From assembly GCA_004357015.1 (NCBI GenBank), contig SMXE01000124.1, forward strand, positions 1-12,037: a DNA stretch of 12,037 nt, in the 5' to 3' direction. A program made the position numbers and the translations under genes. The notes beneath the pieces were generated by a model, which had not been told where the DNA came from, searched no databases, and worked only from the letters and a program-made list of their open reading frames with translations. Shown here one piece after another: positions 1-8,735 of the stretch (positions are counted from its first letter, which is position 1; every line of letters starts with the position of its first letter). Source of the DNA: Caldithrix sp. GTDB lineage: Bacteria; Zhuqueibacterota; Zhuqueibacteria; Oceanimicrobiales; Oceanimicrobiaceae.

Positions 1-1053
1 AAGAAGATCCAACTCAAGATGGGTGAGGGAATAGCTGGCTGGGTCGCACAGCATGACGAACCGGAGATCATCCCTGACGTGGCCGCAGACCCCCGATTCG
101 CATCTAAAATAGATGATTCAACGGGCTTTCAGACGCGCTCAATCTTGGCCGCGCCGCTGAGCGTCAAGAACAAAGTTATCGGTGTTGCTGAAGTGATCAA
201 CCGCGTGGACGGCAAAGCCTTCGACGAAGAAGACTTAGAGCTTTTTTCGACTTTTTGCCGGCAGGTGGCTATGGCCATCGAAAACGCGCGCATGTACAAA
301 TTGAAGCTCGAAAAGCAAAAGCTGGAGCAACAGCTTGAGCACGCGAGAACCATTCAGCAGAGCTTCATGCCGCAGGTTTTTCCCAGCTCGCCAGACCAGA
401 AGTTTTCCGTTTACGGCCGGAGTCTGGCTGCGGCTTCTGTTGGCGGAGACCTTTTTGACCTCATCGAATTTGGCAAAGATGAGATCGGTGTTGCCCTCGG
501 CGATGTCACCGGAAAGGGGGTCCCCGCGGCGCTTTATATGGCGCGGCTCGTGAGTGACTTTCGTCTCAACTCGCAACTCCATCACGACCCCGCCGATGTC
601 CTGCGGGCGCTCAACAACCTTTTGGTCGACCGAAGTCGCAGGGGAATGTTTGTAACTTTTCAATATGGCATTCTTGACCACAAGAAGGGAACATTCACCT
701 TCGCCAACGCCGGACACCTGCCATTCATTCACGTGCAGTGTGGCCGAAAGACAGTCGCTTTATTGGAAGGTGGCAAGGGCATCCCGCTGGGCATTGCGCC
801 TGCCGCAGAAATAAGCACGGAGATGGTGCAACTTGACCACGGCGATCATATTGTGTTCGTCACGGATGGCATTATTGAAGCCAAAAACGAAGCCGGTGAA
901 CTCTATTCACTGGAACGGACTGTGGAACTCGTCAACCAGTCGTACGATTCAGCAGAGCAGGTTGTCGAAAATCTTCTGCAGGATGTCCAGCAGTTTGCTG
1001 GCAATGCCGACCAACACGATGACGTGACCATCGTCGCCCTCAAATGGAACTGA
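1..1053 (+). CDS. GAF-domain PP2C-type (SpoIIE/RsbU-like) serine phosphatase, 5' truncated
   Basis: The frame is open to the left edge, so the start lies outside the window and 350 residues are visible. Residues 1-95 are the C-terminal half of a GAF sensor domain (GEGIAGWVA, then a basic hydrophobic core ending in a signalling helix). A short coiled coil (about 98-118, LEHARTIQQSFMP) leads into a SpoIIE/PP2C domain. All the metal-binding acidic motifs are present: VGGDLFDL (D150), GDVTGKGVPAAL (D168), VTDGIIEA (D289) and the terminal HDDVTIV (D340/D341). Family members dephosphorylate STAS anti-anti-sigma proteins in response to the sensor domain. The gene ends one base before an RsbW-type kinase, which is followed by a STAS protein, so its substrate is probably that STAS protein (inferred). 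The signal sensed by the GAF domain cannot be read. Confidence 0.95.
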   Translation, partial: KKIQLKMGEGIAGWVAQHDEPEIIPDVAADPRFASKIDDSTGFQTRSILAAPLSVKNKVIGVAEVINRVDGKAFDEEDLELFSTFCRQVAMAIENARMYKLKLEKQKLEQQLEHARTIQQSFMPQVFPSSPDQKFSVYGRSLAAASVGGDLFDLIEFGKDEIGVALGDVTGKGVPAALYMARLVSDFRLNSQLHHDPADVLRALNNLLVDRSRRGMFVTFQYGILDHKKGTFTFANAGHLPFIHVQCGRKTVALLEGGKGIPLGIAPAAEISTEMVQLDHGDHIVFVTDGIIEAKNEAGELYSLERTVELVNQSYDSAEQVVENLLQDVQQFAGNADQHDDVTIVALKWN

Positions 1054-1054
1054 A

Positions 1055-1468
1055 GTGAAAGAGATCGAAATAAAACTGCCGAGCGATCCCCGGTATTTGA
1101 AGATCATCAGGAATGGGATATCCCACATCAGCGAGATTTGCGGGTTTTCTGATGAAGAATGTAACGCGTTAACAATCGCTGTCGATGAAGCAGCAGCCAA
1201 CATTATCAAGCATACCTACAATGGCGATGAAAACCAGACCATTATTGTTCGCTTTACGATAAAGGACGACCGTCTTGAGATCATCTTGCGAGACTTTGGC
1301 AAGAAAATTGACCCAAAAAACATTAAGCCGAGAAATCTTGACGATATCCGGCCGGGAGGATTGGGTGTGCATCTTATAAAGAGCGCAATGGATGAGGTGA
1401 CGTATGACAACTCGCCGGAGGTTGGCAATCAGCTGATCATGACAAAATATTTACCCGGAGGGAAATAA
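1055..1468 (+). CDS. RsbW-type serine kinase / anti-sigma-like regulatory ATPase
   Basis: 137 residues from a GTG start, one base after the phosphatase stop; no good ribosome-binding site, so translation is probably coupled. This is a compact GHKL ATPase of the HATPase_c_2 class. It shows an N box with E45 and N49 (VDEAAANIIKH), a G1 box DFGKKIDP (80-87) and a G2 box PGGLGVHLIKSAMDEV (100-115). Length and motif order match RsbW/SpoIIAB/BtrW proteins, which phosphorylate a serine of a STAS partner and sequester a second target when the STAS protein is phosphorylated. The likely STAS partner is the next gene. No sigma factor gene is visible nearby, so the sequestered target is unknown: a remote sigma factor, or conceivably the transporter itself (speculation). 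Confidence 0.93.
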   Translation: MKEIEIKLPSDPRYLKIIRNGISHISEICGFSDEECNALTIAVDEAAANIIKHTYNGDENQTIIVRFTIKDDRLEIILRDFGKKIDPKNIKPRNLDDIRPGGLGVHLIKSAMDEVTYDNSPEVGNQLIMTKYLPGGK

Positions 1469-1477
1469 GGGAAACCG

Positions 1478-1816
1478 ATGTTAGAGGTTAAAACAAGAAA
1501 ACAGAATACGGTGGCGATTGTTGAAATCGAGGGTGAAGTCGACCTGTACTCTTCGCCGCAATTACGCAAAGTTCTACTGGAACTCACCAAAGAAAAATCC
1601 CCTGCAATTCTGGTAGATTTGGCAAACGTCAAATACATGGACAGCTCGGGCGTTGCCACCCTGGTTGAAGCATTGCAGCAGGTGGGGAAATACTCCGGCA
1701 ATCTCAAGTTGGCTAATCTACGCGACGCGGTAAAAGATGTGTTTGAACTGAGTCGCCTGGACAAAGTTTTCGACATCTATCAGTCCACGAACGAAGCTTG
1801 TTCAGCTTTCAAGTGA
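1478..1816 (+). CDS. STAS-domain protein (anti-anti-sigma RsbV-like / MlaB-position)
   Basis: 112 residues forming a single STAS domain. An AAGGG ribosome-binding site overlaps the stop of the kinase gene and lies seven bases from the ATG. The diagnostic stretch VDLANVKYMDSSGVATL (46-62) keeps the D-S-S-G motif. S56 is the residue that corresponds to the phosphorylated serine of RsbV and SpoIIAA. The gene lies between an RsbW-type kinase and an MlaE permease. Two roles are therefore possible: the switch protein of the phosphatase/kinase pair, or the MlaB-like STAS subunit that binds the MlaF ATPase, or both. Known MlaB proteins usually lack a complete RsbV-type phosphorylation motif, so retention of D-S-S-G here is informative. 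Which role applies cannot be settled from sequence. Confidence 0.93.
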   Translation: MLEVKTRKQNTVAIVEIEGEVDLYSSPQLRKVLLELTKEKSPAILVDLANVKYMDSSGVATLVEALQQVGKYSGNLKLANLRDAVKDVFELSRLDKVFDIYQSTNEACSAFK

Positions 1817-1822
1817 TTTAAG

Positions 1823-2626
1823 ATGGAATATGTAACCAAATTCTTCGGCAGAATAGGCCACGTCACCTTAGAGTTCCTTGCTCAAGTAGGGCGCATTGCA
1901 GATCTTACCTGGCAGACGGCCTACTGGATTGCTGTAGCACCGTTTAAAGGCAAGGGTTTGCGCTGGAAGAGTACGGTTGAGCAAATGGTTCGAATTGGCT
2001 ATGAGTCCATTCCCATCGTCTGCCTGATCGCCTTTTTTGTGGGTCTGATTATCGCCATGCAGTCTGCTTACCAACTGCAACAATTTGGCGCGACAATCTA
2101 TGTTGCTGATATGACGGCAGTTTCCATCACACGCGAGCTTTCACCCCTTTTGACGGCCATTGTGATCAGTGGCCGTAGCGGTTCCGCCATTACCGCAGAA
2201 ATCGGCACCATGAAGGTCTCGGAAGAGATCGATGCGTTGCAAACCATGGGGATCAATCCGATCCAATTTCTGGTTGTGCCCAAGACACTGGCGATGCTGG
2301 TCATGCTGCCGACGCTGACTATAATGACAAACTTCGTTGGCATTTTTGGCGGCTACCTTATTTCCATGGCCACTCTGGATCTCACGAGCGCCAGATACAT
2401 CATGCAAACCATGAACGCACTTCAATTCGGAGACCTGGCGGGCAGCCTTGTCAAAAGCTTCTTTTTCGCCTTGATAATTTCGAAGATCGGCGCCTACGAA
2501 GGCTTTAACGTGGTCGGCGGAGCCGAAGGCGTGGGGAAGTCTACCACCCGCTCCGTGGTCTCTTCCATATTTTTGATCATTGTCGCCGACGTCTTTTTTA
2601 CAGCACTTTTCTTTTCGACATTCTAG
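1823..2626 (+). CDS. mlaE: MlaE-family permease of the phospholipid/MCE ABC transporter
   Basis: 267 residues, the usual size for MlaE/YrbE permeases. It has an N-terminal amphipathic region, then about five membrane segments (near 63-80, 100-116, 147-175, 205-220 and 245-265). The family signature GRSGSAITAEIGTMKVSEEIDAL spans 117-139 and is followed by a hydrophobic stretch beginning GINPIQFLVVP. MlaE forms the inner-membrane dimer through which phospholipid passes between the inner membrane and the MCE ring. The start is six bases after the STAS stop with only a weak ribosome-binding site, suggesting translational coupling. The ATPase gene begins one base after this stop. The direction of lipid transport cannot be inferred. 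Confidence 0.96.
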   Translation: MEYVTKFFGRIGHVTLEFLAQVGRIADLTWQTAYWIAVAPFKGKGLRWKSTVEQMVRIGYESIPIVCLIAFFVGLIIAMQSAYQLQQFGATIYVADMTAVSITRELSPLLTAIVISGRSGSAITAEIGTMKVSEEIDALQTMGINPIQFLVVPKTLAMLVMLPTLTIMTNFVGIFGGYLISMATLDLTSARYIMQTMNALQFGDLAGSLVKSFFFALIISKIGAYEGFNVVGGAEGVGKSTTRSVVSSIFLIIVADVFFTALFFSTF

Positions 2627-2627
2627 A

Positions 2628-3404
2628 ATGGCAGAAACTATCGTCGAAGTAAAAGATTTGGTTGTCCGTTACGGAACCCGGACAGTGCTCAATGGTGTCA
2701 ACCTTGCAGTCAAGAAGGGGGAGTCCCTTGCCATCCTCGGCAAATCGGGTTGCGGCAAGAGTACGCTTCTACGGCACATGATCGGTCTTTCAAAACCGAA
2801 AAGTGGTCAGATTCTCATAAGGGGCAAAGATATCTCTGAAATGGATGAGGATGAGAAAATAGAAGTTCTCAAGAAAATGGGGATGCTATTCCAGTCTGCA
2901 GCTCTGTTCAACTCAATGACTATTGGAGACAACGTGGCGCTGCCGTTGAGAGAGCACACAGAACTGGAAGAAAGCACCATCAAGATCATGACCAATATGA
3001 AACTGGATATGGTGGGTCTATCCGGATTCGATGGTTTTCGGCCATCGGAGATATCAGGCGGGATGAAAAAACGCGCGGGCTTGGCCAGGGCACTGGCTAT
3101 GGACCCGGAAATTCTCTTTTGCGACGAGCCCTCCGCCGGGCTGGATCCGGTGGTTGCAGCCGGCATCGACAAGCTCATTCTTAGCCTGAAAAAAGCCTTC
3201 AAGATGACCATTGTGGCTGTGACACACGAGATGGCCTCGGTCAAGATCATCGCTGACCGCATCGCTATGATGCACGAGGGCAAAATCCTGGCGATTGGCA
3301 GCATGGAGGAGCTTAGGGGTATGGGCCATCCTGTGATCGAGCAATTTTTTAACCGTGAACCGGATGATGAAGAGATCGACAGACAGAGGTATTTGATGGC
3401 GTAG
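2628..3404 (+). CDS. mlaF: MlaF-family ATP-binding subunit of the phospholipid ABC transporter
   Basis: 258 residues from the ATG at 2628. This start is one base after the mlaE stop and gives a normal MlaF N terminus (MAETIVEVKDLVVRYG); a longer reading frame beginning upstream would only overlap mlaE. All ABC motifs are present: Walker A GKSGCGKST (38-46), Q-loop Q89, signature SGGMKKR (143-149, the family's variant of LSGGQ), Walker B ILFCDEP with D166/E167, D-loop SAGLDP, and H-loop H200. It powers MlaE. The C-terminal tail (about 240-258) is acidic then polar, as in homologues where this region contacts MlaB and the partner subunit. That contact is family knowledge, not seen here. Confidence 0.96.
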   Translation: MAETIVEVKDLVVRYGTRTVLNGVNLAVKKGESLAILGKSGCGKSTLLRHMIGLSKPKSGQILIRGKDISEMDEDEKIEVLKKMGMLFQSAALFNSMTIGDNVALPLREHTELEESTIKIMTNMKLDMVGLSGFDGFRPSEISGGMKKRAGLARALAMDPEILFCDEPSAGLDPVVAAGIDKLILSLKKAFKMTIVAVTHEMASVKIIADRIAMMHEGKILAIGSMEELRGMGHPVIEQFFNREPDDEEIDRQRYLMA

Positions 3405-3427
3405 CCGCGGGGCACTGAACAAAGGTA

Positions 3428-3484
3428 ATGCCGAAAGTTGATGAGCATCTTGAAAACTTTAGACCATACGCGAAAAGATCATAG
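3428..3484 (+). other. possible 18-codon ORF and hairpin in the mlaF-mlaD gap
   Basis: The 89-base gap between mlaF and mlaD is the longest in an otherwise tight run. It contains an ATG-started frame of 18 residues (MPKVDEHLENFRPYAKRS) whose stop reaches the AGGAG site of mlaD. AAAGG precedes the ATG by only two bases, too close for a normal site. The same bases hold an inverted repeat AAAGTT/AACTTT (3434-3439 and 3455-3460) with GATG/CATC nested inside. It may be a processing or stability hairpin, a coupling leader, or chance. Confidence 0.2.
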
Positions 3485-3493
3485 GAGAGTCGC

Positions 3494-4396
3494 ATGACCT
3501 ATAGTTCGAACGAAGTAAAAGTTGGCTTGATGGTGGCCGTTGGCCTGACCATTCTCATGTTATTCCTGGTTGCGATTTTTGGCGTAAGGTGGGAGAAAAA
3601 CACCAAGGACTATCGCACTTATTTGGAGAACGTCCCTGGCATTGTCGTGGGTTCCCTGGTAAAATATGGCGGTATGGATGTGGGTTCGGTAAGCGGAATC
3701 ACCCTGCCTGACGCGACCACTGGTCAGGAAAAAATAGAAGTCAGGCTCAAAGTGGACGAGAAAACGCCTGTTCGCGTCAACTCCCAAGCGTTCATATCTG
3801 CCGTCGGTATCATGCGGGACAAGCACATCGAGATTTCGTCGGGCACACCGGACGCGTCATATCTGCCTCCGGGAAGTGTTTTGCAAGGCAAGGAGGTAGC
3901 CGACTTTATGCAAATGGCCGAGCCTTTTGGCGATCTGAGCGCAAAAGCGGAGGTGCTACTCGAGCGCCTTAGCGACCTTCTGAACGAAGAAAACCGCAGC
4001 CATCTGGCATCCATTCTTGCCAGCGTCGATACTCTGCTCAGCACAGGCGGCAAGCAATTCCTAAGTCTTACCGAAAATCTCGATAATTTAACCAGAAATC
4101 TCGCTTCGATCAGCGCCGATATGGACGACTTGATGAGTGAAAACAAACCGCATTTGAGCGGAACGCTGGCGAATCTGGATTCGACCACAAGGGAAACCGC
4201 CATGTTGGTTGCAGAAATGCGCAAAAGCGCCACCATGTTAAATGAGATGCTTTCCGCCAATGGCAGCAGCTTTATCGACATGATGGAGAACTTCCAGTAT
4301 ACATCTCAGAATCTGGAAGAATTCTCCCGCATGGTCAAGGAGCGGCCATGGCTCCTGGTGCGAAAGGCCGCACCATCGGAAAGGAAAATTCCCTGA
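3494..4396 (+). CDS. mlaD: MlaD-family MCE-domain protein (periplasmic substrate-binding subunit)
   Basis: 300 residues with an AGGAG site seven bases before the ATG. One N-terminal membrane anchor (about 11-30) is followed by an MCE domain (about 38-125), recognisable by the strand pattern VPGIVVGSLVKYGGMDVGSVSGI and by VGIMRDKHIEI. After PPGSVLQGKE comes a long predicted helical region (about 140-285) with heptad-like leucines and repeated LTENLDNLTRNLASI-like turns. The protein ends with RPWLLVRK, a usual tail of this family. MCE proteins form hexameric rings on MlaE and carry lipid in the periplasm. At 300 residues it is longer than the compact E. coli MlaD, and the helical extension may form a longer tube or reach toward the outer membrane (inferred). 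Confidence 0.95.
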   Translation: MTYSSNEVKVGLMVAVGLTILMLFLVAIFGVRWEKNTKDYRTYLENVPGIVVGSLVKYGGMDVGSVSGITLPDATTGQEKIEVRLKVDEKTPVRVNSQAFISAVGIMRDKHIEISSGTPDASYLPPGSVLQGKEVADFMQMAEPFGDLSAKAEVLLERLSDLLNEENRSHLASILASVDTLLSTGGKQFLSLTENLDNLTRNLASISADMDDLMSENKPHLSGTLANLDSTTRETAMLVAEMRKSATMLNEMLSANGSSFIDMMENFQYTSQNLEEFSRMVKERPWLLVRKAAPSERKIP

Positions 4397-4425
4397 ACTT
4401 TCTTAACAACCTAAAGGGGTTTTTG

Positions 4426-5043
4426 ATGAAACCGATTTCAACAGGCATTTTGTTTCTATTTGCTTTGCTGCTGTGTGCTGGCTGCAGCGGCGTGCCGCGC
4501 ACTTACTATTACCGGATAGACTATCCGTTGGAAATACAGCATGACCAAAGCCCGAATTTCCCATGGACGCTCGGTATTGGCCAGTTCAGCGCTGATATTT
4601 TATACGAAGGCGACAGGATTGTCTATCGTGAATCTCCCTACGAAGCGCAATACTACCACTACCGCAGATGGATTGCCCCGCCGAAAAAAATTGTTCCCGA
4701 ACACGTTCGCAAAGACTACCTTGCTTCAGGCGTTTTTGGCAAGGTTGTCTCACTGCCATCGCCTCAAAAGGTAGACTACGTCCTTACAGGCAATGTAGAA
4801 GCGTTTGAGGAGGTGGATGAAGGCAGTACTTGGAGCGGTGTTGTGACCATTCGGTTTCAACTCAGAGACGCGAAGACGAAAGAAATCATCTGGGAGGAAA
4901 GCATTTCGGAACGCACCACCGCCAGAAAGAGAGAGCCGGTCGAAGTTGTGCGGGCCATCAGCGAAAGTCTGAACAAAACGATCAGCAGATCTATCTCAAG
5001 CATAAAGGCGAGTTTACAAACAAACAACACAAGCGCTTTCTGA
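4426..5043 (+). CDS. ABC-transport auxiliary lipoprotein (PqiC/YmbA-like)
   Basis: 205 residues from the ATG at 4426, preceded by AAAGGGG with seven-base spacing. A longer frame beginning at 4348 inside mlaD would bury the signal peptide. The N terminus is a lipoprotein signal (MKPISTGILFLFALLLCAGC). The acylated cysteine is probably C20, although position -3 is Cys rather than the usual Leu. The mature part contains YYYRIDYP, then GDRIVYRESPYEAQYYHYRRW, which is characteristic of the ABC_trans_aux (PqiC-like) family, and an extended beta/alpha C-terminal part. Such lipoproteins sit in the outer membrane and pair with MCE-protein tubes. Its position directly after mlaD suggests it is the outer-membrane contact of this transporter. 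No MlaC or MlaA gene is visible. Confidence 0.88.
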   Translation: MKPISTGILFLFALLLCAGCSGVPRTYYYRIDYPLEIQHDQSPNFPWTLGIGQFSADILYEGDRIVYRESPYEAQYYHYRRWIAPPKKIVPEHVRKDYLASGVFGKVVSLPSPQKVDYVLTGNVEAFEEVDEGSTWSGVVTIRFQLRDAKTKEIIWEESISERTTARKREPVEVVRAISESLNKTISRSISSIKASLQTNNTSAF

Positions 5044-5110: not shown

Positions 5111-5699
5111 ATGGGGACGCTATCTTCACTTAATATTCTGATTGTTGAAGATAATGAAAGTGTGCGGAACGCGATTTCCTATCTTTTGAGCGAATCCAAA
5201 TACTCAGTAGAAACGGTCAATAGCGGAGAGGCCGCGCTCGACAAACTACAGCAAGCTACTTTGACCTCGTCATCAGCGACTACAAGATGGAGCAGATGGA
5301 TGGCATCGAACTGCTCAAGGCGACGAAGAAACCGTGGCCGGTCACGCAGGTGATGCTTCTGCGCTGCCTGCAAGAGAATGAGATTCGCCACGTCCCAGAT
5401 AGCAGCACCCGTACAGTGGACGTTCGTCTAGTCGTGGCCACCAACAAAAAGCTGGAAGATGAAATCGCAAGGGGAAGATTCCGGGAAGATCTGTACCACA
5501 GGATCAATGTCATTCCGCTTCCGTTACCCTTTTAAGAGCGCGCAAAGAAGACATTCCCCCTTCTCGTTGAGCATTTTATCAAGAAGTATGGCGATAGAGA
5601 CAACAGCCGTGTGAGCAAAATTTCTGACCGAGCACTGGCGAGGAATTGGGAATTTCCAAAGCCACATTGTGGCGAAAACTGAAATCAGCAAATGAATAG
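5111..5699 (+). pseudogene. decayed NtrC-family sigma-54-dependent response regulator
   Basis: Fragments in the right order are spread over several frames. Frame 1 (5111-5256) begins a receiver domain: LNILIVEDNESVRNAISYLL with the acidic pair, after an AGAGGA site. A one-base loss near 5257 moves to a frame reading YFDLVISDYKMEQMDGIELL, with the phosphoacceptor Asp in SDYKM. The text then jumps from the middle of the receiver (PVTQV) straight to the late AAA+ domain: LLRCLQENEIRHV, VDVRLVVATNKKLEDEI, GRFREDLYHRINVIPL, ending in a stop at 5535. RKEDIP follows in another frame, then LLVEHFIKKYG after an extra C in the run at 5556-5560. The end is ELGISKATLWRKLKSANE, a Fis-type helix-turn-helix, with its stop at 5697-5699. 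Walker A, the GAFTGA loop and most of the central domain are missing. It cannot make a working regulator. Confidence 0.9.
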
Positions 5700-5712
5700 G
5701 ACTAATAGGACT
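5695..5712 (+). repeat. 9-base tandem duplication AATAGGACT x2
   Basis: AATAGGACT at 5695-5703 is repeated immediately at 5704-5712. The first copy contains the old stop codon of the decayed regulator. It probably arose by replication slippage and ends just before the ribosome-binding site of the transglycosylase gene. Confidence 0.85.
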
Positions 5713-6596: not shown

Positions 6597-6697
6597 TTAA
6601 ACGATTTTGCCGATAAAACGCGTTATGGGCCTGCAGCATAATCGAACGTTTGTGGAAAATTAGTGGTGTGAATCGGCAATCCAAAGATCTAAATGAG

Positions 6698-7510
6698 ATG
6701 AAGTCATACGACATGGGTACCCAGGCCGAACTACCCGAGACGACTAAATCACTCCCAGCAGAAGCCAGTCTGTTCCATTTTCTAAGAGTCACCAGTCAAG
6801 CGATCCATTCAGGGCTACAGCTTGAAGATTTTCTTTCGAAACTGGCAGAGGCGATACATCAGGTGCTCCCAGTCAGTGCACTGGCCATATCTAAATATGA
6901 TGCGGTGTCAGCTTCTTTCCATACTGTCTATTCCGGCGGGGCAGAATCGACCTCCGGAGATGGCAAGCTTTCTCCGAACCTCGCGGATGAGGCAGTGGCG
7001 AACAAGCAAGTTGTGTGGGAAAACGTGCACAACCAAAACGCATCGTCAGGGCTGATGGCAGCGCCGCTCCTGTCTCACGGACGTGTAAGTGGCATAATAC
7101 AGGTAAGGAGTGATCGCCTGCCTTATCACAACCAACATTCTGAAGCCCTCTACGTAATTTCCTCTGTGGTCGCACTTGTTCTGGACAATTTCTGGCAAAA
7201 AGATGGCAAGCCGGAAACGGATAAATTGTCGACACGGGACCGCAAACTAGCCGTACTTGAGACAAGGAACAAGAAACTCTTTTCTGTGGTGGAGTTGGCT
7301 CGCTCCATTGCGCATGAACTCAACCAACCGCTTACCGGCATTTCAGGTTATTGTGCATTGATCAAGGAAGAACTTGCGGAAGGCCATCCCATTACGAAAG
7401 ATGTCGATGAAATACAGAAGCAGGCATTGCGACTTGAGCAGCTCATCCACAAGTTTCAGAATGCGGCACATGTAGAATACCGGGAGAATTCCAGAGACAA
7501 TTCCGGATAG
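6698..7510 (+). CDS. GAF-HisKA protein without an ATPase domain (partial histidine kinase type)
   Basis: 270 residues if it starts at the ATG at 6698; a TTG at 6650 in the same frame would add 16 residues. Neither start has a convincing ribosome-binding site. Residues about 25-165 resemble a GAF domain (LEDFLSKLAEAIHQVLPVSALAI, then LMAAPLLSHGRVSGIIQV). A helical linker leads to a HisKA dimerisation domain with an intact H box, ARSIAHELNQPLTGI (H206). The protein ends soon after the second HisKA helix (LHQ-type stretch LIHKFQNAAHVEY), where a HATPase domain would normally follow, and no in-frame continuation is present. It could be a phosphotransfer partner served by another kinase, most obviously the next gene, which has both receiver and ATPase domains. 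It may instead be an NtrB-like kinase that lost its C-terminal half. Confidence 0.8.
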   Translation: MKSYDMGTQAELPETTKSLPAEASLFHFLRVTSQAIHSGLQLEDFLSKLAEAIHQVLPVSALAISKYDAVSASFHTVYSGGAESTSGDGKLSPNLADEAVANKQVVWENVHNQNASSGLMAAPLLSHGRVSGIIQVRSDRLPYHNQHSEALYVISSVVALVLDNFWQKDGKPETDKLSTRDRKLAVLETRNKKLFSVVELARSIAHELNQPLTGISGYCALIKEELAEGHPITKDVDEIQKQALRLEQLIHKFQNAAHVEYRENSRDNSG

Positions 7511-7550: not shown

Positions 7551-8735
7551 ATGGCCAAGACACCGAACAAAATCCTGATAGTTGACGACGAAGAGGTTAT
7601 CCGAAACATCTGCCAGAGGAGCCTTGAATCAAGGGGCTACACTGTCCAGTTGGCAGAAAACGGCATCAAGGCGTTGGAATATTTGCGGCAGGAATCCTTC
7701 GAAGTCGTCTTTACCGATTTCAAGATGCCGATGATGGACGGCATCGAATTGCTGGAGGCCATAAAGCGGGATCATCCGCACGTTGAAGTTGTGATTATGA
7801 CGGCGTTCGCCACCATCGAAAGCGCCATCTACGCCATGAAGGAGGGAGCGTTTGATTTCATTCTAAAACCGGTGAAGCCAGACCAAATCCGGATTGTAGC
7901 CAATAGATGTTTCGACCGCATCAAGCTCGGTGAAGAAAACAAAGCACTCAGGCTTGCAAACGAAAAACTGACCGAGTTGCAGAACATGAAAAATAAGTTT
8001 ATCGCAATCACCAGCCACGAATTGCGAACACCGGTCAGCCATCTGAAAGGATATGTCGGCATCCTGGCTGACGAGTACGCTTATCAGCTTTCGGATCAAG
8101 AAAAAAAGCAGTGCATGCAGGTGATTTCAGATGCTATTTTAGATCTTGAAGAGATCGTTACCAATATGCACAATCTGATTCACATGGAAAGCAGCGAAAC
8201 CACCCTCAAATCAGAAAAAGTCGATATTGCCGGCTTGGTTCAGCAAAGCGTTAGCGCTTACCAGTTGACCGCAAGGAAACGGAAACAAGAGGTCAAGGTT
8301 GGCGCCAGCGCTGAGAAGTTGGTGGTGACTGTTGACCGCGCGCAAATCAAAGGCGTGCTGAATGAGCTCATTCAAAATGCCATCAAGTTCACACCCGACG
8401 GCGGGAAAATTGAGGTATCTGCTCAACGCGATGGTGACTACTGCCTGGTTTGTGTCAAAGACAACGGCATTGGAATTCCTTCCTCCGAGCAAGGTCTGAT
8501 TTTTGAAAAATTCTATGAAGTCCAGAGCAGCGACCACCACAGCTCAAGCAAGGAGGCGTTCAAAGGTGGCGGCCTGGGCCTGGGTCTGCCGTCGGTACGG
8601 GCCATCGTGGAAGCGCACGGCGGCGGTGTAAAAGTTAAAAGCGGAAAGGGAAAGGGAAAGGGAACTGAATTTCAGATTTTCCTGCCTATCAATGGCCAGA
8701 AAAAATCCAGGAAAGGCCGCCAACTAAATAGTTAG
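7551..8735 (+). CDS. hybrid: N-terminal receiver domain with histidine kinase core
   Basis: 394 residues. Residues 1-125 are a receiver domain: acidic pair D12/D13, phosphoacceptor D56 in FTDFKMP, conserved T84 and K106. A coiled-coil linker (about 126-148) is followed by a HisKA domain with H156 in AITSHELRTPVSHL. A HATPase_c domain completes it: N box NELIQNAIKF (271-280), G1 DNGIGIP (304-310), F box EKFYEV, and G2 GGGLGLGLP (339-347). There is no membrane segment, so it is cytoplasmic. Receiver-first kinases usually take phosphate from, or are gated by, another kinase. The GAF-HisKA gene 40 bases upstream is the natural partner. No output regulator is visible in the window apart from the dead NtrC-type gene. 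Confidence 0.93.
   Translation: MAKTPNKILIVDDEEVIRNICQRSLESRGYTVQLAENGIKALEYLRQESFEVVFTDFKMPMMDGIELLEAIKRDHPHVEVVIMTAFATIESAIYAMKEGAFDFILKPVKPDQIRIVANRCFDRIKLGEENKALRLANEKLTELQNMKNKFIAITSHELRTPVSHLKGYVGILADEYAYQLSDQEKKQCMQVISDAILDLEEIVTNMHNLIHMESSETTLKSEKVDIAGLVQQSVSAYQLTARKRKQEVKVGASAEKLVVTVDRAQIKGVLNELIQNAIKFTPDGGKIEVSAQRDGDYCLVCVKDNGIGIPSSEQGLIFEKFYEVQSSDHHSSSKEAFKGGGLGLGLPSVRAIVEAHGGGVKVKSGKGKGKGTEFQIFLPINGQKKSRKGRQLNS
8643..8663 (+). repeat. in-frame GGAAAG microsatellite in the kinase gene
   Basis: The hexamer GGAAAG is repeated three times plus a partial copy. It encodes GKGKGKG just after the G2 box, where homologues usually have a single GKGT turn. Six-base units keep the frame, so copy number could vary without killing the gene. 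Confidence 0.8.

Follow-up and report, generated by a model that had tools for sequence, protein, structure and literature searches.

Partner-switching kinase, phosphatase and STAS genes linked to Mla lipid-transport genes in Caldithrix sp. and other bacteria, with a proposed control of the transporter

What does a partner-switching phosphorylation module act on when its genes are followed by those of a lipid transporter? The question is raised by a 12,037-nucleotide stretch of DNA (the window) at the start of contig SMXE01000124.1 of Caldithrix sp. (GCA_004357015.1, a 2.2 Mb assembly that is 70% complete). Seven genes that run in a single direction encode a GAF-PP2C phosphatase, an RsbW-type kinase, a STAS protein, MlaE, MlaF, MlaD and a lipoprotein, in this order (Table 1). 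Open reading frames (ORFs) and Pfam matches bear out the order given in the initial annotation, its gaps of 1, 9, 6, 1, 89 and 29 bases are correct to the base, and the partner-switching trio is indeed followed by mla transporter genes instead of a sigma factor gene, of which the operon has none. Only its word "fused" is inapt, as the genes are adjacent and there is no gene fusion.

The Pfam cut-offs are exceeded by GAF and SpoIIE/PP2C, HATPase_c_2, STAS, MlaE, ABC_tran, MlaD and ABC_trans_aux. The operon encodes together the phosphatase, kinase and STAS phospho-acceptor of a partner-switching module, and together the MlaE permease, MlaF-type ATPase and MCE-domain MlaD of an Mla/MCE ABC transporter. 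MlaF and MlaD score below the NCBIfam equivalog cut-offs, so that their match to the E. coli proteins is at family level. With a probability of about 0.7, we propose that the seven genes encode a single regulated transporter, in which phosphorylation controls the hold of an MlaB-like STAS subunit on MlaF.

Linkage of the switch genes to mla genes

Within the class, a kinase orthologue (profile search, E<=1e-35) is present in 56 of 60 genomes, a count that includes the window genome and excludes three further class genomes; none was found in G009, G014, G028 and G050. In 52 of the 56, the window genome included, mlaE lies 502–833 bases downstream of the kinase gene on the same strand, and in G054 the locus ends at a contig end. 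Around 29 other class loci, taken with flanks of ~1.5 kb, a STAS gene follows the kinase gene in all 29, MlaE is found in 28 and PP2C precedes the kinase in 24; the single locus that lacks MlaE (L023) lies on a contig stretch that ends before the MlaE position. Outside the class but in the same phylum, the kinase occurs in 3 of 19 genomes at the same threshold, and each of the three also has the STAS and mla genes.

A scan of contigs of GTDB genomes with the kinase alignment extends the pattern far beyond the phylum. Among the best 80 of 541 confirmed stretches, 71 carry kinase, STAS and MlaE genes on one strand in that order (69 under stricter thresholds), with PP2C directly upstream in 46 and MlaF downstream in 56 of these 71. 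They bear about a dozen phylum labels: KSB1, Calditrichota/Caldithrix, Nitrospinae/Nitrospinota, Tectomicrobia, Methylomirabilota, Terriglobia, Planctomycetota, Deltaproteobacteria, Auribacterota, UBP3 and Nitrospirae with Thermodesulfovibrionales (21/21), to which are added two Actinomycetota-labelled bins and seven bacteria without a phylum label. Assembled records labelled Thermodesulfovibrio sp. and Caldithrix sp. are among the carriers of the operon (L157, L103, L124). The window kinase is 79% identical to its nearest relatives (KSB1/Calditrichota) among the matches listed. Four of the nine other stretches either reach contig ends (L113, L149) or have MlaF/MlaE divergent from the kinase (L158, L167). 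With 52 of 56 class genomes and 71 of these 80 loci sharing it, the gene order is not unique to this genome; uniqueness would, according to the initial annotation, have refuted its proposal.

The STAS protein provides an internal control. An alignment of STAS proteins from the operon loci was searched in six further groups, each named after its centre record, at E<=1e-22 (Nitrospirota, Planctomycetota, Desulfobacterota, Acidobacteriota) or E<=1e-25 (Methylomirabilota, Nitrospinota/Tectomicrobia). Matches occur in 30 of 198 Nitrospirota genomes (MlaE at 30/30 loci, kinase at 27/30), 55 of 294 Planctomycetota genomes (25 of 30 fetched loci with MlaE within ~1.5 kb), 24 of 297 Desulfobacterota genomes (MlaE at 5/24 loci), 17 of 297 Acidobacteriota genomes (2/18 loci), 15 of 95 Methylomirabilota genomes (1/15 loci) and 9 of 18 genomes of the Nitrospinota/Tectomicrobia group (9/9 loci). 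The low MlaE counts in some groups are not noise, because the pooled scores of 224 distinct STAS proteins split bimodally by MlaE linkage: MlaE lies within 2.5 kb for 149 of 158 proteins above 110 bits, 9 of 23 between 100 and 110 bits and 1 of the 43 that score 100 bits or less (147/156, 9/21 and 1/43 after removal of near-copies). Many of the low-scoring proteins belong to ordinary phosphatase-STAS-kinase sets and others stand alone. Since the profile started from the window and was built on survey loci, it favours its own family, a bias that does not explain the position of MlaE. Chance adjacency was rejected on the counts of ordered loci in the class and in the scan and on this bimodality; the linkage of kinase, STAS and mla genes is far beyond chance.

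Several loci keep the partners in other arrangements. Two Planctomycetota loci (L341, L343) read MlaE-MlaD-lipoprotein-MlaF-STAS-kinase-PP2C, L342 reads kinase-STAS-MlaF with no MlaE seen, and in a Desulfobacterota locus (L332) the kinase gene points away from MlaF-MlaE-MlaD-STAS, a layout of which L167 and L393, from one genome, are two pieces. The kinase and PP2C matches span a single frame in L341 (6978-8696), L343 (4791-6539) and L170 (4900-6702); Pfam confirms one chain, with kinase, GAF and PP2C, in L341 alone. The GAF and SpoIIE architecture is found in all five operon phosphatases scanned with Pfam and also in L158. Two Planctomycetota loci without an upstream PP2C match have a small HEAT-repeat protein before the kinase (L134 5782-6198, L153 3134-3508). 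The PP2C gene of a KSB1 locus (L104 5514-6469) matches in three pieces, as does that of L009, owing to a broken gene or an assembly error. In three Methylomirabilota loci (L354, L355, L357), PP2C-kinase-STAS genes have as neighbour an ABC ATPase whose score (132-135 bits) is not that of an MlaF-like protein and which has a TOBE domain in L355; this is possibly another partner-switched transporter, or chance.

Signatures in the kinase, the STAS protein and MlaF

By NCBIfam the kinase is nearest to RsbW, and the closest solved structure by profile is RsbW (6m36_A). Its HATPase_c_2 domain carries the N-box and G-box residues of RsbW/SpoIIAB kinases, which we take to be catalytic: E45, N49, D80 and P100-G104 are invariant in 52 of 52 aligned sequences. 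A tree made from a random 45 of 156 MlaE-linked rows plus rearranged loci places 45 of the 46 rows marked as near MlaE on one side of a branch with 96/95 support. The 46th (L335) is apparently a generic second kinase of its locus, and the two L335 kinases separate likewise in another tree, of rows picked by hand, where 40 mla-type kinases, eight of them from rearranged loci, split from 15 others with 78/90 support. Among these eight are L170 and L279, whose kinases are identical and which have no mlaE in the fetched stretch. An ORF of L163 that resembles a kinase-STAS fusion was rejected, since Pfam finds STAS alone and the kinase match is in another frame.

The STAS protein belongs to the anti-sigma-factor-antagonist superfamily of NCBIfam. 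In an alignment by eye, its Ser56 takes the place of Thr52 in E. coli MlaB (D51-T52-G53-G54). Three groups were compared: STAS proteins linked to a kinase and MlaE (n=153), those fused to MlaE (n=19, all class paralogues, after 4 of 23 upstream segments were dropped as not STAS-like) and generic ones without MlaE (n=43); six with MlaE but no kinase scoring above 95 bits nearby were held apart. As expected of MlaB-like proteins encoded in mla operons, a serine occupies the Thr52 position in 153/153 of the linked group. It does so too in 19/19 fused and 42/43 generic proteins; S56 is near-invariant in all three groups and is therefore not discriminating. Its conservation as proof of phosphorylation was rejected, the kinase-less fused proteins having kept it.

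Other positions do discriminate. A60 (148/153 linked, 16/19 fused, 1/43 generic) and E64 (143/153, 14/19 and 1/43) stand just past the putative phospho-site on helix 2, where E. coli MlaB has Ala (by eye) and His, respectively. This helix is central to the MlaB-MlaF interface (PMC7367683). S57 is found in 150/153 linked and 40/43 generic proteins and in 1/19 fused ones, most of which have Ala. L94 is present in 153/153 linked vs 3/19 fused proteins and F98 in 153/153 vs 0/19; these kinase-type residues are common in linked and generic proteins and mostly lost in the fused. Since the linked proteins combine them with the transporter-type residues A60 and E64, they show both faces.

A second signature lies in MlaF. 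In E. coli, Tyr261, Leu265 and Leu266 of the MlaF C-terminal extension sit in the MlaB-MlaF groove (PMC7367683); the three residues were confirmed on the fetched E. coli gene. In complete MlaF proteins, the tail, counted as the residues after a conserved QF site, is at least 15 residues long in 92 of 92 with an operon-type STAS gene within 6.5 kb (median 23; 26 in E. coli) and in 4 of 29 without STAS or kinase nearby (median 6), all 29 being from class genomes (p=4.5e-22, uncorrected for relatedness). A loose aromatic-aliphatic pattern is present in 76 of the 92 vs none of the 29; three of the 92, from loci with the MlaE-first layout, have a cysteine-rich tail end instead. The MlaF proteins of L158 and L167, which have a kinase and no STAS gene in the stretch, carry both tail and pattern and were placed in neither group. 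Taken at the level of sequence, the MlaF tail and the helix-2 residues favour binding of the STAS protein to MlaF, whose helical subdomain and C-terminal tail are what MlaB binds.

A separate MlaB elsewhere in the genome was another finding that, according to the initial annotation, would refute its proposal, and this is answered in part. The window copy is the only MlaE match in its genome, at 70% completeness. In class relatives, many extra MlaE copies of 365-411 residues have a STAS-like domain in the same chain (three of three scanned match a STAS family at E<0.001, one under the Pfam cut-off, and 19 align as STAS); next to those copies, a search with the STAS profile detected no separate STAS gene.

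Table 1. Features of the operon in the window (coordinates in nucleotides from the first base of the window).
Feature	Coordinates	Strand	Evidence and remarks
GAF and SpoIIE/PP2C serine phosphatase (RsbU-like)	1..1053	+	PF07228 168 bits, GAF 61.5 bits; N-terminus missing (contig start)
RsbW/SpoIIAB-type serine kinase (HATPase_c_2)	1055..1468	+	GTG start; PF13581 95.7 bits
RsbV-like STAS protein, putative kinase substrate and MlaB-like subunit	1478..1816	+	PF01740 79.6 bits; three-way signature test
Codon of STAS Ser56 (D55-S56-S57-G58), proposed phosphorylation site	1643..1645	+	S56 in 153/153 kinase-linked STAS proteins
MlaE permease	1823..2626	+	PF02405 275.6 bits
MlaF ATPase	2628..3404	+	ABC_tran 115 bits; top NCBIfam match MlaF, under cut-off
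MlaF C-terminal extension, 18 residues	3348..3401	+	Shorter than in close relatives; E. coli counterpart contacts MlaB
MlaD (MCE domain)	3494..4396	+	PF02470 53.4 bits
ABC transport auxiliary lipoprotein	4426..5043	+	PF03886 30.4 bits (ORF 4348-5043); start 4426 picked by eye for lipoprotein signal

Downstream of the operon, between the lipoprotein gene and a gene for an SLT transglycosylase, lies an apparently decayed gene for an NtrC-type response regulator (5111-5700). It consists of the start of a receiver domain (5111-5353), a frame change, and AAA+ and C-terminal-like pieces in other frames; Pfam gives a match for the receiver part alone, just under the cut-off. Farther on, a GAF-HisKA protein (6650-7507), for which Pfam reports no ATPase domain, is directly followed by a gene (7551-8735) whose translation reads by eye as a receiver-histidine kinase.

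A proposed switch on MlaF and its competitors

In the mechanism that we propose, a free MlaB-like STAS subunit would dock on MlaF, and docking would be required for the assembly or activity of MlaFE(D). The RsbW-type kinase would phosphorylate Ser56 at the N-terminal end of helix 2, the place of contact between MlaB and MlaF, and the phosphorylated protein would leave MlaF or fail to bind it, turning the transporter off. The kinase may, in addition, retain unphosphorylated STAS. Binding of STAS to its two partners would presumably be mutually exclusive. A ligand sensed by the GAF domain would activate the PP2C phosphatase, and the dephosphorylated STAS would return to MlaF and switch transport of the putative lipid cargo on. 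An ABC ATPase would take the place of the sigma factor as the partner of the switch. The direction of control and the GAF ligand are guesses. The dephosphorylated form is proposed as the active one because the phosphomimetic T52E of E. coli MlaB weakens MlaF binding and phosphorylation of SpoIIAA, RsbR and RsbS disrupts partner binding (PMC7367683), and because SypA, discussed below, is active unphosphorylated.

Neither coevolution nor structure modelling was informative. Mirror-tree correlations over 119 operons (kinase-STAS 0.78, STAS-MlaE 0.76, MlaE-MlaF 0.76, STAS-MlaF 0.67, kinase-MlaE 0.67, kinase-MlaF 0.59) fit co-inheritance and prove no contact.

A number of observations count against the proposal. 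Mean-field direct coupling analysis (122-164 paired operons, effective number 89-129) gave no STAS-MlaF signal over the kinase-MlaF control; the analysis was rejected as underpowered because top scores of this negative control were as high as those of STAS-MlaF. The kinase and STAS protein, modelled as a single chain by reading through the in-frame stop with a 13-row alignment, form two well-folded domains (mean predicted local distance difference test score, pLDDT, 85.6); a confident interface between them is lacking (predicted template modelling score, pTM, 0.53), and the natural linker of a few residues may itself block docking. The window STAS protein scores 21.8 bits with the NCBIfam mlaB model NF033618, vs a cut-off of 90, and the STAS profile is nearer to RsbV and SpoIIAA (TM1442 98.5 bits, RsbV 71, SpoIIAA 68.5) than to MlaB (22.4 bits for the named MlaB 6xbd_K and 32.8 for 7ch8_K, which we take to be an Mla complex). 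MlaB has a minimal STAS fold without the fifth strand and C-terminal helix (PMC7367683); in the model, a strand at 240-242 and a helix at 245-251 (chain numbering) were read as extra elements of the window protein. The MlaF tail of the window is short and fails the aromatic-aliphatic pattern, and the MlaE-fused paralogues have a STAS domain and yet an MlaF without a tail. Finally, in three class genomes (G023, G047, G008) the kinase has no adjoining STAS or mlaE gene, in five of the best 80 scan loci (L114, L161, L163, L165, L170) mlaE is absent from the stretch seen, and four high-scoring STAS genes (L334, L338, L394, L395) have no mla genes in the fetched stretch.

The kinase might instead be an anti-sigma factor and the STAS protein its antagonist, acting on a distant sigma factor that perhaps transcribes the operon, with the mla genes merely co-transcribed. 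In the best known partner switches the output is a sigma factor, the kinase and STAS protein are nearest by sequence to RsbW and to RsbV/SpoIIAA, and several sources name the STAS relatives "anti-sigma B factor antagonist". In a search of 103 loci (1.13 Mb) with E. coli FliA, RpoH and RpoS at E<=1e-3, other sigma types not being sought, clear FliA-type genes were found in two Planctomycetota loci, ~1.5 kb (L148, 3768-4568) and ~2.7 kb (L175, 9583-10374) from the kinase and on the strand opposite to kinase-STAS-MlaE, and a marginal match in L114. No match to these three was found in the other 100 of 103 loci. Three Nitrospirota genomes (L329-L331), moreover, have STAS-MlaE two-gene units that keep the DSSG motif; neither a kinase nor MlaF nor MlaD was found in the fetched 13 kb. 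The generic STAS proteins of the same phyla lack MlaE (present in 1/43). As this explanation also leaves the MlaF tail and the helix-2 signatures unaccounted for, we consider it unlikely.

A dual output is quite unlikely: the STAS protein would serve as an MlaB-like subunit and would at the same time antagonise a sigma-holding kinase, so that transporter occupancy would feed envelope status into transcription. The presence of both residue sets on the STAS protein, the RsbW-type domain and motifs kept in the kinase, and the Planctomycetota loci with a nearby sigma gene would fit such an arrangement, but in nearly all loci the search for FliA, RpoH and RpoS types found no sigma gene close to the kinase.

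Very unlikely is a purely structural MlaB whose serine acts without phosphorylation, the kinase and phosphatase being leftovers or acting on another STAS protein: S56 is invariant in the 19 kinase-less fused proteins and therefore has a role besides phosphorylation, and E. coli MlaB T52A is non-functional though still bound (PMC7367683), both of which also tell against phosphorylation as the sole function of this residue, but the catalytic residues of the kinase are invariant (52/52), S57, L94 and F98 are kept in linked proteins, and the linkage is retained in rearranged loci.

Related systems and implications

The proposed phosphorylation-controlled transporter shares with E. coli MlaFEDB a STAS protein accompanied by MlaE, MlaF and MlaD, a Ser/Thr at the same helix-2 site and, in most operon members, an MlaF C-terminal tail with aromatic and aliphatic residues. 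Unlike it, the E. coli operon has no annotated kinase or phosphatase in or beside it, and the window encodes an RsbV-like STAS protein that apparently has one more strand and helix at its C-terminus, and a lipoprotein but no mlaC-like gene. The PP2C phosphatase, the Bergerat-fold serine kinase and the D-S-S/T-G motif of the STAS protein are those of RsbU/RsbW/RsbV and SpoIIE/SpoIIAB/SpoIIAA; here, however, the operon is free of sigma genes, mla genes follow, and A60 and E64 set the STAS protein apart from generic ones.

Partner switches without a known sigma output have precedents. In the SiaABCD system of Pseudomonas aeruginosa, SiaA is a phosphatase and SiaB a kinase, and SiaC is, to our knowledge, not a classical STAS protein. 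In this phosphorylation pathway SiaC activates the diguanylate cyclase SiaD, and the output is therefore an enzyme and no sigma factor; the output proposed here is an ABC transporter. SypA of Vibrio fischeri consists of a STAS domain only, is active when unphosphorylated at serine 56 and is under dual kinase/phosphatase control by SypE (PMC8256260); it has no known target, whereas the transporter ATPase is the candidate target here. STAS-DUF140 (STAS-MlaE) fusions tie STAS to MlaE (Casali and Riley 2007, PMC1810536), but in a single chain, and for the class copies no adjoining kinase was found, S57 is replaced by Ala in most and MlaF has no long tail. The STAS-MlaE link and its fusions are thus already known, as are switches that end elsewhere than on a known sigma factor. 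In the open-licence PMC literature we found no report of a partner-switching kinase or phosphatase tied to Mla, and as far as searches of it go, nothing earlier describes the combination of switch and Mla, how widely it occurs, or the signatures in MlaF and the STAS protein.

Kolich et al. (2020) treat the regulation of MlaB activity as an open question and phosphorylation as an intriguing possibility for which Thr52 has given no experimental evidence (PMC7367683). These operons supply candidates for the kinase, the phosphatase and the site, which opens the question to ordinary in vitro experiment. Grasekamp et al. (2023) found MlaB to be sparse and the ancestral core to be MlaEFD only, with an MlaB profile built on NF033618 (PMC10665443); since the window STAS protein barely matches this model, the finding bears on that view.

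At somewhat better than even odds, the linked STAS proteins are a widespread and unrecognised class of MlaB, found under about a dozen phylum labels, through which a GAF-PP2C/RsbW switch toggles an envelope lipid ABC transporter without a sigma factor. As the partners are kept through several operon rearrangements, post-translational control of Mla is perhaps ancient and the kinase-less MlaB of E. coli perhaps a reduced form. If true, many proteins now called "anti-sigma factor antagonist" would need re-annotation (2,959 of 8,000 candidates scored are STAS relatives at E<=1e-25, irrespective of mla linkage), a primary transporter would be a direct target of partner switching, and bacteria with such operons would have a fast post-translational control of envelope lipid flow.

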